The position numbers were made by a program, and so were the translations under genes. A DNA stretch of 16,191 nucleotides from Promethearchaeota archaeon (GTDB lineage: Archaea > Asgardarchaeota > Lokiarchaeia > Sigynarchaeales > SOKP01), in assembly GCA_019894735.1 (NCBI GenBank), contig JAGXOB010000027.1:1-16191 (forward strand), given 5' to 3'. Shown here one piece after another: positions 2-13,774 of the stretch. The notes below the pieces were generated by a model that made no database searches, was not told the origin of the DNA, and saw only the letters and a program-made list of their open reading frames with translations. The number at the start of each line of letters is the position of its first letter. Position 1 is the first letter of the stretch.

Positions 2-2245
2 TTTAGCATAGTCGCCCACATCGATCATGGAATGTCTAACTAATTGGTTCAATAGTTACCCATATAGACGACAGCAAGCGACTACTTGTTAAGACGTGCA
101 GGTTTAATGCGCGAAGAAGATGCCGGACAGCTCCAAATGACCGATTCAGATTTAGAATAAGATTTACTTTTTCTACTGAAAGAAGAGGAGCAGGCAAGAG
201 GCATAACAATTTTCACCAGTGTTGTTCTATTAGCGTTCAATGATACAAGAAAACCTGATGACGATGAACCTTACATCCTTCAAATTAACGACACACCGGG
301 ACATATATCCTTTACAGGGGAAGTTTCGCGCGCACTTAGAGGAAGTGATGGTGCAATTATTCTCGTTGATGCCTTAGAGGGTGTAATGACTCAAACTGAA
401 ACAAATATTCGATTATCTGTTGGGGAAGAATTTTGCAAACCGGTTCTGTTTATCAACAAAGTAGACCGATTAATTAGCGAACTTAAGTTAAGCCCAGAAG
501 ACACTTTTGCGAAGATTGATAAAATATCAAGACAGGTAAACGAATTAATCAAAAAGATTAGGCCCGAAGGATCGGGTTGGGGAGTAGATTTTGCCAAAAA
601 TAGCGTTACCGTTGGTTCAGCCAAACACGGATGGGGTTTCACTTATGAAATTCTGTTAGAAAAAGGTTTGAAGCCACAAGATGTATTCGCAAAATATAAA
701 GAAGGCGACATTCAATGGCTAAGAGAAAATCTTCCACTTGACGAGCCTATGTTAAGGATGGTTGTGGATCATTTACCTAATCCAGCAGAAGCTTCAAAGT
801 ATAGAATTCCTCATATTTGGGGTGGCGATTTGGACTCAGAACTAGGACAATCACTTCAAAAATGCGATCCTAAAGGTCCTCTCTATGGCATGATTACAAA
901 AATATTCTTAGATCCCCGGAGAGGGTACCAAGCTACTCTAATTGGTCGTGTTTTTTCTGGTACATTCGATCATTCTGACTCAGTTTATTTGATAGGCGGT
1001 AGAAGTACAAATCGAATAAAACGATTAGGTGTTATGGAAATCACAGATCTTTTAGATGTACCCCGAGTTCCAGCAGGTAATTTATTTGCCTTATACGGGT
1101 TTATTTGTCCATCTGGAGAAACTTTTATGTCTGCAAGTGACGTACCAAAAAATAAGGAGGAAGCATACCAATTAGCCACCTTTGAAAAAATCCAGTACGC
1201 TTGTGAACCAGTTGTTTCAAGAAGTATAAAAGCCCTAGATCCACAGGAAATAGATAAACTGGATCTCGTAGTAAGTAAGTGGCTTCAAGCAGATCCGACC
1301 GCGATGTATCGTTTAGATAAAGAATCTGGAGAATTTATTTTAAGTGGGATTGATCCGCTTCAAATTGAGATACTTACCAAGCGTATTAATAATCAAGTAG
1401 CAATTCATATTGGAGAGCCGATTATAGTATATCGAGAAAAAATCACTAAGAGAAGTAAAGACTTTTATACGAAATCAGCTAACACGCATAATCGCATTTT
1501 GTTATACATTGAACCATTAGACGAGATAACAGAAAAGCTAATTGAGTCTGGAAAAATAACAGATTTGATGAGTGAAAAGGATAAAGCTAAAATCTTGAGA
1601 GAGGAAGCTGGTTGGGACGCGAAAGAAGCTAGAAGGATCGTTGATGTGTACCAAGGTAGCTTACTCGTAAATGGCACCTCAGGATTGCAACGATTCGATA
1701 GGGTAAAATCGTATTTAACAGCCGCCTTTAGAGATTGGCTCGGAGAATGTATTCTTGCAAAAGAACCAGCTGCAGGATTTAAAATAGTTTTCACAGACAT
1801 GACGATTCACGAAGACACTCGCCATACATCCTACGGACAAATTGCAGGAATGGCTTTTTCAGCAATGTCGTTAGCTATGTTGGACGCTGATCCTCACCTT
1901 TTTGAACCTATTCAGAAAATTGACGTAAAAACTCCGGAAGGAACGGAAGGACCAGTAAATGCCATTATTAACAAACGACGTGGTAAAATTACAAATGTAG
2001 TTCCCGAAGGAGAATACGTACGAGTCCAAGGTGAAATTCCCGCAGCTGAGACTATTGGTATAGCTGACGACATTCGAGGTTCAACTCAAGGAAGGGCATT
2101 TTTCGGATACGAATTTTCGGGATTTGAAAAAGTACCTCATAGTGTAGAGGAAGATTTAATTCTCGAAATTCGCAAACGTAAGGGTATGCCAGACCATTTA
2201 CCAGATACTTCAAGTTGGGATCGGTTTATTTACAAAAAGACATAG
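2..2245 (+). CDS. fusA: Elongation factor 2 paralogue, interrupted by two BHB mini-introns; 5' end outside the window
   Basis: This is the EF-2 GTPase, which translocates tRNA and mRNA on the ribosome. Proposed coding segments are 2-32, 66-151 and 182-2245 (39 + 687 codons plus stop); about 20-25 N-terminal residues lie upstream. Unspliced, the same frame has stops at 41, 53, 65 and 158. Spliced, it gives G1 HIDHGKTT, DEEEQARGIT with the switch I Thr (codon 206-208), G3 DTPGH (290-304), G4 NKVD (455-466), then domains II-V without interruption. The length of roughly 745 aa is normal for archaeal EF-2. In domain IV the histidine equivalent to the diphthamide site is kept (codon 1823-1825), but the usual HRGGGQ-like loop reads HTSYGQ. 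This suggests a second EF-2 copy of the kind known from Asgard archaea rather than the canonical diphthamidated one. The ATG at 386 is not a credible start because it would omit G1 to G3. Family call is near certain; functionality depends on the introns being removed. Confidence 0.93.
33..65 (+). other. Predicted bulge-helix-bulge intron 1 (33 nt) inside the EF-2 P-loop lysine codon
   Basis: Seen in the sequence: exon bases 27-30 (ATGG) pair with intron bases 60-63 (CCAT), giving the 4-bp central helix. Bulge 1 is 31-33 (AA|T) and bulge 2 is 64-66 (AT|A), each 3 nt. The inner helix is 34-35/58-59 and 38-42/53-57, then 44-46/50-52 with loop 47-49. The outer exon-exon helix is 25-26/67-68 and 21-23/69-71, with A24 bulged. 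Known rule: the archaeal splicing endonuclease cuts after the second base of each bulge. Applying it removes 33-65 and joins GGA-A to AG-ACG, so HG|K|TT is restored with the lysine codon AAG split after its first base. Three in-frame stops vanish. Splicing itself is inferred. Confidence 0.85.
152..181 (+). other. Predicted bulge-helix-bulge intron 2 (30 nt) just before EF-2 switch I
   Basis: Seen in the sequence: exon bases 146-149 (TCAG) pair with intron bases 176-179 (CTGA) as a 4-bp central helix. Bulge 1 is 150-152 (AT|T) and bulge 2 is 180-182 (AA|G). The inner helix is 153-157/171-175, a T-T mismatch, then 159-161/167-169 with loop 162-166. The outer helix is weak (145/183 only, then an internal loop), so this is a relaxed BHB. 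Cutting after the second bulge base removes 152-181 between codons (phase 0) and deletes the in-frame TAA at 158. It rejoins TDSD to EEEQARGIT, which matches the DxDEEEQARGIT pattern of ordinary archaeal EF-2. Splicing is inferred. Confidence 0.8.
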
Positions 2246-4912: not shown

Positions 4913-5548
4913 ATGAAATATAAACCCTCTTTGCTTATTATCGGAAATTCAAATGTAGGAAAAAGCTCAATAACAAGATTATTACTACCAAATCCGAAGA
5001 AATTTAAAGGTAAAGCAGGTAAACAACCAGGAAGCACACTCATGATAAAATCTATTGAATTTCCTCAAATGCCCTATAACATTGTGGACTTACCTGGGTT
5101 TGGGTATATGAATAGCCCTAGCCGCCGAAGAGAAGAACATATAAAAAAACAATTAGTTATCCATATTGAAAAACACCATGGTGAATACTTTTTTGGTTTA
5201 GTAATACTGAATTTCTTAAGGATAGAAGATGAGTTAAAAAAATATTACTTAGAGAATGATACATCGATTCCTCTAACTTTTGAATTAATAAAATTTCTAA
5301 AGGAATATAATATACCTCTTCTAGTTATTTTAAATAAAGTAGATAAGGTTTCAGTTTTCGATAAGAAAAGAATACTATCATTATTGATAGATTCTGCTAA
5401 GGATTATGGATTAAACTTAATCCAAATAAACGACGAAGAAGATAGAGTTCATATGAAAATACCTTATTTAGAATTCTCGGCAATAAAAAGAACAAATTTG
5501 GATAAATTAAAAAGAATTATAAATATGTCCCTTCAAAATGTAGGATAA
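4913..5548 (+). CDS. engB: EngB/YihA-family GTP-binding protein
   Basis: A 211-aa TRAFAC-class GTPase. G1 is GNSNVGKSS (residues 11-19), G2 is within KQPGST (37-42), G3 is DLPGFGY (59-65), G4 is NKVDK (141-145) and G5 is SAIK (189-192). The NSNVGKSS and DLPGFGY wording is that of the EngB/YihA family, whose bacterial members act in large ribosomal subunit assembly; archaeal homologues are widespread but less studied. The length is normal for the family. A ribosome-assembly or nucleic-acid-linked role is inferred from family. The gene is preceded by a terminator and a promoter-like sequence and runs convergently into the Taw1 gene with only 17 bases between stops. Confidence 0.88.
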   Translation: MKYKPSLLIIGNSNVGKSSITRLLLPNPKKFKGKAGKQPGSTLMIKSIEFPQMPYNIVDLPGFGYMNSPSRRREEHIKKQLVIHIEKHHGEYFFGLVILNFLRIEDELKKYYLENDTSIPLTFELIKFLKEYNIPLLVILNKVDKVSVFDKKRILSLLIDSAKDYGLNLIQINDEEDRVHMKIPYLEFSAIKRTNLDKLKRIINMSLQNVG

Positions 5549-5565: not shown

Positions 5566-6855
5566 TCAGGGATTTGTGATAACAGGGTTTTTATTCTCAT
5601 CCCAATTGATAGCAAACAAGAAATCTCTACTCGTCTTATTTTTATAAATTAAGGGAAAATTTCCTATTTCTTGGAATTTGAAAGCTAAAGCCTCTAAATC
5701 TTCGTAAGTAGGGAAATAGTGCTGAATAGGTTTATCACTTTTCAATCTTTCTTTAATGTTTAGTGCGCTAGCCTGAAGAGTAAATCCTTTAATTTCAAAA
5801 AAATTAGGGTTTGCCTTCTCAATTATCTTAACATAATCTTCTACATATTTTTCAGCGAAGTTCAAATTTTTTACGGCTGTTAATCTTACTACAGTTCTAC
5901 AAGTTAAACTTTGAACCAAACCTAAAGATGATAGGATTTTTTCCCACCCATTTTTTATCATCGGACGGCAGATTTTTTTATACAGATCGTTATTTGGTGC
6001 TGGTAACGTGATATAGAGTTGTGATGGTAATGAATTTAAACTCTCAATTCTTTCTGGTAATGTTCCGTTAGTCACAATAAAAGAAGTCATATTTCGATCA
6101 CGAAACTCCTTAACCAATCCATCTAATTTTGGATATAAGAATGGCTCACCATCAAGAGATATTGCTGCATGATTGGGGGTCATAGCTTCACTATGCGCTT
6201 GCATAATCTCGTCTGGGGTTGTTAATGAAATGTTGATTAACTTAACTATTTCTTCTCTTGAGTCGATGCAGCACGATATTTCGTTGTCAAGTTTAAAACT
6301 CTTTAAAGAATCATCCGTTGATACAAGAAACTCCTGATTTTTTAATAAGTTTAGTGCACGTTCGATCTTATTTTTACTCACGTGGAGCCCTTTTGAAAGT
6401 GAGTTTAAATCATGATTTTCTTCATTTTTTAACATATAAGTGAGAAGATCCACCATAATCTCATAATTTTCAAGATATCTTCTTAATGGTAAATGGTTTT
6501 TTATAATATCTTGATGTTGACGAATCATCTCGTCGATTAAATAGCTAGGTTCATCGGGTTCAACGCTAAATTCACTACTTATATTTCCGAGTTCAGTATC
6601 TCTCCAACAGAAAACGCACTGTTGATTACAGAATGGCATAGACGGAGTGTTTTGTAAGCATCTGTGACTCTGAATTCCAAAAACTCCCTTATAACAATTT
6701 CTGTTCTCTCTCCCTGTCATCAATTTTTGTTCTAACCAATGACATGGTTTAATTGCAGTATGTTTATTTTGACCTATTATGCGATATGTTGTTTTAGTAT
6801 AAGCTTCAACAAATTTGTTTGTAATTTTGTTGTCAATTATGTATGGATTTGTCAT
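5566..6855 (-). CDS. taw1: Taw1/TYW1-type tRNA 4-demethylwyosine synthase with an internal insert of about 95 residues
   Basis: Radical SAM enzyme that builds the tricyclic 4-demethylwyosine from N1-methylguanosine at position 37 of tRNA-Phe, using pyruvate. The radical SAM motif is CNQQCVFCWR, with CxxxCxxC cysteines at about residues 76, 80 and 83. Three further cysteines upstream (about 38, 54 and 66, in PCHW, NCYKGVFGI and SHRC) match the second Fe-S cluster of TYW1. Later family motifs are NHAAISLDGEP, VTNGTLPE and APNNDLY. At 429 aa it is over 100 residues longer than usual archaeal members. The excess lies between IRQHQDIIKN and TPDEIMQAHSEAM (about 120-215) and looks like a winged helix (LNSLSKGLHVSKNKIERALNLLKNQEFL). 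Start chosen at the ATG 6855; a GTG directly before it at 6858 is also possible. The gene is divergent from the phosphorylase. Confidence 0.92.
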   Translation of the reverse strand: MTNPYIIDNKITNKFVEAYTKTTYRIIGQNKHTAIKPCHWLEQKLMTGRENRNCYKGVFGIQSHRCLQNTPSMPFCNQQCVFCWRDTELGNISSEFSVEPDEPSYLIDEMIRQHQDIIKNHLPLRRYLENYEIMVDLLTYMLKNEENHDLNSLSKGLHVSKNKIERALNLLKNQEFLVSTDDSLKSFKLDNEISCCIDSREEIVKLINISLTTPDEIMQAHSEAMTPNHAAISLDGEPFLYPKLDGLVKEFRDRNMTSFIVTNGTLPERIESLNSLPSQLYITLPAPNNDLYKKICRPMIKNGWEKILSSLGLVQSLTCRTVVRLTAVKNLNFAEKYVEDYVKIIEKANPNFFEIKGFTLQASALNIKERLKSDKPIQHYFPTYEDLEALAFKFQEIGNFPLIYKNKTSRDFLFAINWDENKNPVITNP

Positions 6856-6858
6856 CAC

Positions 6859-12356: not shown

Positions 12357-13016
12357 TTAGTAAAAAATAACATCAAGTTCTTCAATTAATTTTTCTTTAG
12401 TAAGTTCAAATCCTTTCCGAAGAACGGAAACTATAATATCTTTCCCGGTGGGAACATTTAGAATGCTATTGTCTTCCTCCACTATTGCTATACCAACTTC
12501 GTTATAATCTAATTGTCTTTTTAGAGCTTCATAGGCTTTTTCTTTGGTTTTAAAGGCCGCTCTTGATAATTCATTGTAATTTTTTACATCTTCTTTTATA
12601 TTCAAAAATAGGATACATTCTTCTACTTGGGAAATAAAAGACTTTTTAGTAATTTCTTTCAATTTTTCATAGTCTTTATGATTTTTTTTACACTGCTTAT
12701 CAGTTTGGTCATTTTCTAAATAACTTGGGAAGTTTTTATTTATCACTTCATCAAATTTTTCTTTGTTAATCTCCCCATTTTCAATTAGCGTTTTTGCAGA
12801 CTCTAACGCGATTTCAATTTGTTTTAATGTCCCAACACGAGCATTGTGATCGCTCCAAAGCTTATAAAAAGCTTTTACTATTGGTTTTACAACAAAATTA
12901 AACGCTCCGGCATCTAACTCAGAATCTATTAACTCTTTACCATAACCGAGTGACAAGTCAGTCGTTGAAATCATCTTCTCTTCAACGATTCTATAGTTTC
13001 TTAGTATATGACTCAT
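12357..13016 (-). CDS. Helical protein of unknown function, tandem paralogue A
   Basis: A 219-aa protein, predicted almost wholly alpha-helical, about half identical to its neighbour at 13118-13774 over the full length. Shared blocks include NFVVKPIVKAFY (about residues 40-51), the HxARxGTLKQI segment, a C-x3-H motif within QCKKNHKDYEKLKE (about 108-121), SRAAFKTKE and VLRKGFE near the end. Conservation of the cysteine and histidine between copies suggests a structural or metal role, but no catalytic family is recognised. No signal peptide or membrane helix. GGAG on the minus strand (13025-13028) lies 8 bases before the ATG and works as a Shine-Dalgarno site, supporting this start. It may share transcripts with the downstream DUF2085-like gene. 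Confidence 0.75.
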   Translation of the reverse strand: MSHILRNYRIVEEKMISTTDLSLGYGKELIDSELDAGAFNFVVKPIVKAFYKLWSDHNARVGTLKQIEIALESAKTLIENGEINKEKFDEVINKNFPSYLENDQTDKQCKKNHKDYEKLKEITKKSFISQVEECILFLNIKEDVKNYNELSRAAFKTKEKAYEALKRQLDYNEVGIAIVEEDNSILNVPTGKDIIVSVLRKGFELTKEKLIEELDVIFY

Positions 13017-13117: not shown

Positions 13118-13774
13118 TTAATCATAAGTTTCGTCTATAGATTCTAAAAATTCCTTCTTAGTCTCTTCGAATCCTTTTCTTAACGCTTTGATAATTATCT
13201 TCTTACCTGCTGGTAAAGATAGAATACTTGGATCCTTTTCAATAATTTTAATTCCTTTTTCCGTGAACTCTAATTGTTTCATTAAATTCATAGTAGCTAG
13301 TTCTTTAGTTTTAAATGCAACTCTAGCAAGTTCGCTATATTCATTTACATCCTCTTCAACGCTAAGAAATGTTCTCACTTCTTCAAGATAATTAATAAAT
13401 GTTTCCCTTGCATTTTCTTTTAATATTTCGTAGTTTTTATGGTGCTTGCTACATTGATATGTTACTTGATCACCTTTTAGATATTTGGGGAAGTATTCTT
13501 CGACAATATTACTAAATTCTTCTTCAGATTTACCATTTAACAATAATTGCTTACCAGCATCAAGTGTTACGTCTATTTGCTTCAACGTTCCCTTCCTTGC
13601 GTCATGCATGGCCCAAAAATCGTAAAACGCTTTAACAATTGGTCTTACTACGAAGTTTAAAATCCCCGTATCTAATTCCGTATCTATAAGTTTTCGCCCT
13701 TTTTTAAGAGATAGTTCCATTTGCTGGATCATTCTCTCTTTTATTATGTTATAATTTCTCTCGATATACTCCAC
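13118..13774 (-). CDS. Helical protein of unknown function, tandem paralogue B
   Basis: A 218-aa all-helical protein, the sister copy of the gene at 12357. It begins with GTG; a GGGGAT stretch about 8 bases upstream may serve as ribosome binding site, and the ATG inside that stretch is out of frame. Shared with copy A are NFVVRPIVKAFY, ARKGTLKQID, QCSKHHKNYEILKE (C-x3-H), ARVAFKTKE and ALRKGFEETK. The two copies differ by only a one-residue gap, so this is a clean gene duplication followed by divergence at the DNA level. No family, domain or membrane segment is recognised. It is divergent from the pseudo-GTPase/TPR-like gene at 13981, and may share a regulatory region with it. Confidence 0.75.
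   Translation of the reverse strand: MEYIERNYNIIKERMIQQMELSLKKGRKLIDTELDTGILNFVVRPIVKAFYDFWAMHDARKGTLKQIDVTLDAGKQLLLNGKSEEEFSNIVEEYFPKYLKGDQVTYQCSKHHKNYEILKENARETFINYLEEVRTFLSVEEDVNEYSELARVAFKTKELATMNLMKQLEFTEKGIKIIEKDPSILSLPAGKKIIIKALRKGFEETKKEFLESIDETYD

Follow-up and report, generated by a model that had tools for sequence, protein, structure and literature searches.

Likely archaeal-type introns in the elongation factor 2 gene of Lokiarchaeal genomes

Bulge-helix-bulge (BHB) introns are rarely found in archaeal messenger RNA (mRNA). Going by two papers, coding-sequence introns of archaea were so far known from cbf5 of Crenarchaeota alone (PMC7714728, PMC2738675), and the cbf5 mRNA intron is given as the only reported BHB intron of its kind besides one in the 5' untranslated region (5'-UTR) of HVO_1309 (PMC7714728); an earlier note on the DNA treated here had likewise called such introns rare and named cbf5 as the known case. 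Here, we describe putative introns in another gene, that of elongation factor 2 (EF-2), on a stretch of 16,191 nucleotides from a Promethearchaeota archaeon (contig JAGXOB010000027.1; the whole stretch is referred to as the window). Two inserts in this gene, at positions 33-65 and 152-181, are very probably archaeal-type BHB introns, which would be cut from the EF-2 mRNA by the tRNA-splicing endonuclease and sealed by the ligase RtcB.

The cbf5 pre-mRNA intron of Desulfurococcales and Sulfolobales (Watanabe 2002; Yokobori 2009, PMC2738675) also lies in a coding sequence, and it resembles the EF-2 inserts in being cut between bulge bases 2 and 3, in its patchy presence and in its hetero-oligomeric endonuclease. 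It belongs to another gene and another phylum, and one ancestral intron with at least two losses was inferred for it (PMC2738675), whereas the EF-2 inserts occupy four sites in one gene, one of them also in a paralogue, and their carriers share flanking exon bases; 16 of the 17 inserts in the histidine-bearing gene described below are exactly 30 nt long. The HVO_1309 5'-UTR intron of Haloferax volcanii, 46 nt long and seen as circular RNA, is likewise an mRNA substrate of the splicing endonuclease, but it sits in an untranslated leader and its removal rebuilds no protein (PMC7714728). Within the Asgard archaea, PMC11291895 describes abundant tRNA introns in Atabeyarchaeia and Freyarchaeia, which are short as well and for which the same enzymes are expected, but these reside in tRNA genes and the EF-2 inserts in mRNA. 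Among the literature matches listed, which for the most part do not include subscription papers and preprints, neither an intron in EF-2 nor a BHB intron in any Asgard mRNA is described. The translocase EF-2 would be a new host gene, in archaea that are taken as the closest archaeal relatives of eukaryotes.

Inserts with in-frame stops in EF-2 genes

The EF-2 gene occupies positions 2-2245 of the plus strand, with its stop codon at 2243-2245 and its 5' end beyond the left edge of the window, so that exon 1 is partial. Its frame 2 translation starts FSIVAHIDHG-MSN*LVQ*LPI*-TTASDYLLRRAGLM (asterisks denote stops), with three stops exactly between G34 and T36, and consists in order of FSIVAHIDHG, MSN*LVQ*LPI*, TTASDYLLRRAGLMREEDAGQLQMTDSD, LE*DLLFLLK, EEEQARGIT and the remainder onward to the stop codon. 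Judged by translation and by full-length relatives, the last base of exon 1 (3' part, 2-32) is the first of the P-loop lysine codon, and putative intron A (33-65, 33 nt, three in-frame stops) lies inside that codon. Exon 2 (66-151) extends from the end of the K35 codon to MTDSD; putative intron B (152-181, 30 nt, one in-frame TAA) follows between D63 and E64 in the same reading frame, and exon 3 (182-2245) runs through the stop codon and matches the Pfam families EFG_C, EFG_III, EFG_IV and GTP_EFTU. The interruption of the P-loop at 33-65 had been pointed out in the earlier note, as had the rebuilding of GKTT through a split lysine codon by cuts after 32 and 65; translation confirms both, while the second insert was absent from that note. 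Deleting exactly 33-65 regains HIDHGKTT, the A of exon 1 and the AG of exon 2 forming the P-loop lysine codon. The genomic bases preceding ACG ACA at this site are ATA TAG, and because no in-frame AAA or AAG stands there, the lysine can only arise by joining both sides. Downstream of both inserts the EF-2 frame has no further stops, and 180 silent against 31 amino-acid-changing codon differences from the related locus L001 indicate that the rest of the gene is constrained.

Some other classes of insert can be set aside on these data. Inteins and group I and II introns insert at the most conserved stretches of essential genes, and the placement of the EF-2 inserts is similar. They are, however, only 30-33 nt long, contain in-frame stops that make the reading frame discontinuous, unlike an intein, and the window has no Rfam match at the gathering threshold, as the conserved ribozyme core of a group I or II intron would be expected to give. 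Readthrough of the stops was also set aside; it would add about ten residues to the P-loop.

The EF-2 5' part was compared across 61 rows, comprising the window and loci (L numbers) from two genome collections (G numbers); 54 of these rows are distinct, and seven identical row pairs, all insert-free, were merged in the tree. L008 and L021 (no 5' part), L052 (a partial diverged copy) and L094 (starting at residue 74) were omitted before the count of 54, as were the repeat rows L024-L037 and EF-2 fragments, for example in G016, G027, G045, G047 and G056. The 23 EF-2 loci found, at 95% protein identity or less, all stem from metagenome-assembled genomes of Lokiarchaeota/Lokiarchaeia. Fifteen of these 54 Lokiarchaeal genes are interrupted, by 17 inserts in total, and 39 are continuous; the four insertion sites fall within roughly 100 coding bases. 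Site A0, between H30 and I31, is occupied in L069, L074 and L092; site A, inside the K35 codon, in the window and L019 (genome G012); site B, after D63, in ten genes (window, L001, L012, L016, L023, L062, L070, L071, L074 and L077); and site B', two codons before B, in L080 and L082. Two genes are double carriers, the window with A and B and L074 with A0 and B. Once the inserts are deleted, none of the 61 coding sequences contains a stop and the joined protein matches empty-site relatives. Within the family, 14 of the 65 genomes searched have in-frame stops in this EF-2 gene; outside it, no stops occur among the EF-2 matches listed from 227 genomes of the phylum, 187 of which gave a match.

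In alignment with the solved archaeal EF-2 structure 8hl1, the window EF-2 keeps a histidine at the presumed diphthamide position. This histidine is missing from a second EF-2, which shares 33-36% identity with the first and whose listed matches cover most of the protein in 45 of the 65 genomes. While all 17 inserts in the histidine-bearing gene are 30 or 33 nt long, the second EF-2 of G011 and G012 has a 31-nt insert at the identical nucleotide of the P-loop lysine codon. The sequences of the L019 insert and of these two are unlike, but nucleotide and BHB geometry are the same, and one P-loop point is hit in two paralogues.

This pattern bears on the possibility that the interrupted gene is a pseudogene in decay, or misassembled, with the inserts as debris. 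The in-frame stops would suit such a reading, as would the many public EF-2 proteins that start downstream of the sites (see below). We nevertheless regard it as highly improbable. Inserts recur at the same four sites in 14 genomes besides that of the window, one of which consists of a single 2,265,824-bp contig, so that the assembly artefact considered in the earlier note is not borne out; site A is empty in 52 of the 54 distinct EF-2 genes, as that note had expected of relatives for the 33 nt. Moreover, there are no stops downstream, silent changes far exceed replacements, the structure of the inserts covaries, and it is the interrupted copy that bears the histidine at the diphthamide position, while the other EF-2 copy does not.

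Bulge-helix-bulge geometry and splicing enzymes

In an intron from i to j, exon bases i-6 to i-3 pair with j-5 to j-2, i-2 to i and j-1 to j+1 form the bulges, and each bulge is expected to be cut between its second and third base. In intron A the exon strand ATGG (27-30) pairs with the intron strand CCAT (60-63); the 5' bulge AAT (31-33) is predicted to be cut after 32 by the BHB rule (PMC2738675) and the 3' bulge ATA (64-66) after 65, as the earlier note had laid out. In intron B, TCAG (146-149) pairs with CTGA (176-179), the 5' bulge ATT (150-152) and the 3' bulge AAG (180-182) have predicted cuts after 151 and 181, and an inner hairpin at 153-175, seen in geometry and fold, has nine positions per side, eight of them paired, and a 5-nt loop. 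This is the common plan of most inserts: a 4-bp helix, a 3-nt bulge, a hairpin of nine positions and a loop of 5 nt. All four central-helix pairs are present at the protein-restoring cut in 19 of 19 inserts (the 17 and the two in the second EF-2). None of the registers slid by 1-4 nt retains all four, and other placements in the same loci show them at a rate of 0.016-0.030 each. Next to the 5' bulge, 7-9 of nine hairpin pairs form in 18 of the 19 inserts, and for 18 of the 19, a full helix with an equally good hairpin is found at only 0-5 other placements per locus (highest 5 of 5091). Minimum-free-energy folding of ten inserts reproduces the helix of 4 bp, the bulge of 3 nt and the hairpin in six cases (window B, L069, L071, L012, L042 and L046), and in three of these the helix gains a pair; L019 folds into a shifted variant, and window A, L080 and L082 fold otherwise. 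Among the ten, the fold energies of window A (see below), window B, L042 and L082 are ordinary compared to shuffled sequences (z is -0.99 for window B, -0.21 for L042 and -1.40 for L082).

Compensatory changes are evident in an alignment of 14 of the 19 introns, all of 30 nt (excluded were window A, both second-EF-2 introns and two duplicates). Of its cells 94.5% are paired, 11 of 13 pairs have changed on both sides, and 0 of 500 shuffles reach as high; in slid registers the pairing of the same introns drops to 32-49%. At site A, the central helix covaries between exon and intron, with ATGG and CCAT in three genes (window, L019 and L046) and ACGG and CTGT in L042, where the exon change amounts to a silent change of a histidine codon.

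These observations also bear on the idea that the ribosome bypasses the inserts. Ribosomal bypass is known from T4 gene 60 and from the byp elements of yeast mitochondria, and short inserts with hairpins and stops, all 17 of them in the histidine-bearing EF-2 multiples of three in length, resemble what it would use. Yet the lysine codon is split at window site A, in L042 and in L046, with no AAA or AAG in the landing frame; take-off and landing codons are unlike at A0, B and B'; in the second EF-2 the inserts measure 31 nt; and the helix joins the exon with the end of the intron, as a BHB requires. Bypass is therefore very unlikely in our view. In-frame stops together with a predicted BHB at both inserts make archaeal-type introns the likely explanation.

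The enzymes that such introns would need are encoded in relatives. The splicing endonuclease family PF01974 is present in all 15 intron-bearing genomes, with two subunit genes in 11, and RtcB in 13 of the 15. In G037, the first endonuclease subunit aligns best with 3p1z chain B and keeps the histidine, while the second aligns best with 1a79 and has Asp-Ser in place of Glu-His, which predicts a pair of one catalytic and one structural subunit. Hetero-oligomeric endonucleases are the type reported to cut the unconventional motif of the cbf5 intron (PMC2738675). It seems likely that an endonuclease with predicted catalytic and structural subunits would cut after base 2 of each 3-nt bulge and that RtcB would ligate the exons to give GKTT and SDEEEQ, with full-length EF-2 being made from the spliced mRNA only. 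Programmed excision of the inserts from DNA in some cells, rather than from RNA, would leave the same clean frame that an empty-site relative displays, but the BHB geometry and the splicing enzymes fit RNA, and we consider DNA excision scarcely credible.

Several results weigh against splicing at a BHB. Window site A has the least structural support: 321 of 16046 other window placements do as well, the inner hairpin is imperfect, with 3 of 9 pairs by ungapped count, and the fold is no better than shuffles (z +0.35). The inner hairpin and outer exon helix described in the earlier note both exist, but the former consists of 2 bp, a CU bulge and 5 bp, and the latter, with five pairs, needs a bulged A24. 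Thus, of that note's claim that structure, frame and conservation agree on a single base, it holds that the cut restoring the protein has BHB geometry, while structure by itself says little at site A. Among the restoring candidates listed, the outer exon-exon helix of the full hBHBh' motif reaches only 0-3 contiguous bp, so that for most copies the relaxed form fits better than the full motif; relaxed BHB forms are substrates of some archaeal splicing endonucleases (PMC12397907). Furthermore, RtcB was not found in G006 and G011 among the 15 intron-bearing genomes searched, and the enzyme survey covered intron-bearing relatives of the window. Finally, joining broken frames by the BHB rule along the G037 contig (2,265,824 bases, 13,700 N) gave 1072 cases against 1020-1135 in five decoys, which is no excess.

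Further scans gave similar results. A strict motif scan of G037 returned 29 hits against 19-29 in six decoys and did not list the EF-2 intron of G037 itself, the hairpin of which has two mismatches, so that sensitivity is poor; a looser first scan returned 500 and 444 hits against 481, 501 and 431, 445 in decoys. The BHB motif alone lacks power where comparative evidence is absent; a large excess of introns is not seen, but a few are possible. The tRNA introns of G037 were set aside as a control, since up to 80 placements per tRNA were permitted. A covariance search of the kind proposed in the earlier note, using a model of the 30-nt introns, yielded 15 matches in the 65 genomes at E<=2.9e-4, all of them EF-2 introns used in model building or identical copies, whereas the second-EF-2 introns of G011 and G012 were missed. 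Of five weak matches (E 0.03-0.33), two fall in frames that are not interrupted and three outside any clear gene. No member outside EF-2 was found in the 65 genomes, which is weak evidence given that 102 candidates per genome were scored and those two introns escaped.

Gain, loss and possible movement of the inserts

Close relatives with and without the inserts offer a natural system for studying gain, movement and loss of protein-spliced introns and a possible control of translation capacity by splicing. In a gene tree that omits the first 90 alignment columns, site B requires at least seven state changes and a single carrier clade is rejected (p-AU 2.31e-77); sites A0, A and B' need three, two and two changes. 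The exon bases in front of site B contain a further signal. Most intron-B carriers of distant lineages share silent bases in the tract CAG CTC CAA ATG ACC GAT TCA GAT (128-151 in the window). In the ten codons before B, carrier pairs agree at 296 of 387 third positions (0.76); the values are 1707 of 4160 (0.41) when a carrier is compared with a non-carrier and 3445 of 8937 (0.39) between two non-carriers. Pairs more than 92% identical were excluded, and the pairs are not independent. In the ten codons after B the values are 0.49 (carriers), 0.41 (mixed) and 0.44 (non-carriers), and farther off they lie at 0.42-0.51 in all classes. Also, the introns at B, B' and A0 share parts of the hairpin tip, with AG ahead of the loop and CTT behind it in most rows, which would fit one intron family, although their shortness forbids certainty.

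The site B pattern suggests an intron that moves between lineages together with its exon flank, with some losses. More generally, the introns may form a small family that moved among A0, A, B and B' and between lineages, carrying some flanking exon bases. We give about even weight to the wider proposal of a mobile family of 30-nt mini-introns that lack an endonuclease or ribozyme of their own, re-insert in the P-loop and switch I of EF-2 and in the P-loop of its paralogue, spread with an exon tract and tie EF-2 output to the tRNA-splicing machinery. Alternatively, true BHB introns might be immobile, with an ancestral set lost repeatedly and the exon bases near B kept for splicing, which we hold to be possible but doubtful and which concerns movement only. 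Gain and loss are indistinguishable from change counts, and the B carriers are somewhat more clustered than shuffled labels (7 changes against a mean of 9.4; 8 of 500 shuffles as low). The intron-free L020 has the whole upstream tract, as a loss would leave it, and the carrier L077 is locally nearest to the non-carriers L065 and L067 (8 of 10), with 7 of 10 shared with the four other carriers listed; both cases count against movement. On the other side, the shared tract extends to codon -8, past the paired bases. Around the site, the window and L001 share all 9 of 9 silent positions with the far carriers L012, L016, L023, L062 and L074, and 8 of 9 with two further carriers; with the closest listed relatives that lack the insert they share only 3-5 of 10, despite an agreement of 0.56-0.72 over the gene. 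Similarly, L077 agrees with its close relative L076 at 1 of 10 positions locally against 0.86 over the gene (5 of 10 and 0.89 for L073). Unlike introns at the same nucleotide of two EF-2 paralogues likewise speak against immobility.

Public entries, the second EF-2 and neighbouring genes

Introns of this kind have consequences for annotation. Among the best 120 public protein matches to EF-2, 63 cover the full length, while 23 begin at M49 (after A0/A), 10 at M132 and 13 near residue 77 (both after B) and 11 otherwise. Thus, 46 of the 120 start just downstream of intron sites, as judged from protein starts, and since the contigs range from about 2 kb to more than 180 kb, some starts may be contig ends. 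Gene callers were probably misled by such introns in many of these entries. EF-2 would then often be misannotated in this group, and alignments used for phylogeny may lack the P-loop.

Both EF-2 copies score near-equally against solved EF-2 structures (520 and 549 bits). The diphthamide synthase family PF01866 was not found in any of six genomes searched (G001, G012, G026, G028, G032 and G037), while four archaeal controls were positive. Its absence, despite the histidine retained at the diphthamide position, agrees with the published loss of diphthamide in Asgard archaea; Narrowe and colleagues in 2018 reportedly described EF-2 paralogues and lost diphthamide in this group. The second EF-2 L093 (G059:C89) has one in-frame TAG (RLIREL*LTDEQI), which could be a substitution, an error or recoding; a single-codon stop without an insert, it was not scored as an intron. 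L052 in G011, at about 1501-1986, is a second, partial and diverged EF-2 5' region (82% across residues 1-164) whose P-loop context is altered (MDHGKTTPS), and is probably a fragment of a duplicated gene.

Two other GTPase genes lie near EF-2 in the window, a Ras-family small GTPase at 2280-2840 on the minus strand and a 50S-binding-type GTPase at 4913-5548 on the plus strand (both by Pfam), and their P-loop frames are uninterrupted. Adjacent genes at 12357-13016 and 13118-13774, both on the minus strand, encode proteins of about 218 residues that look alike by eye and have no Pfam match. The minus-strand gene at 5566-6858 encodes a radical SAM protein (PF04055) that by eye resembles TYW1/Taw1 and possibly contains an inserted winged-helix stretch.

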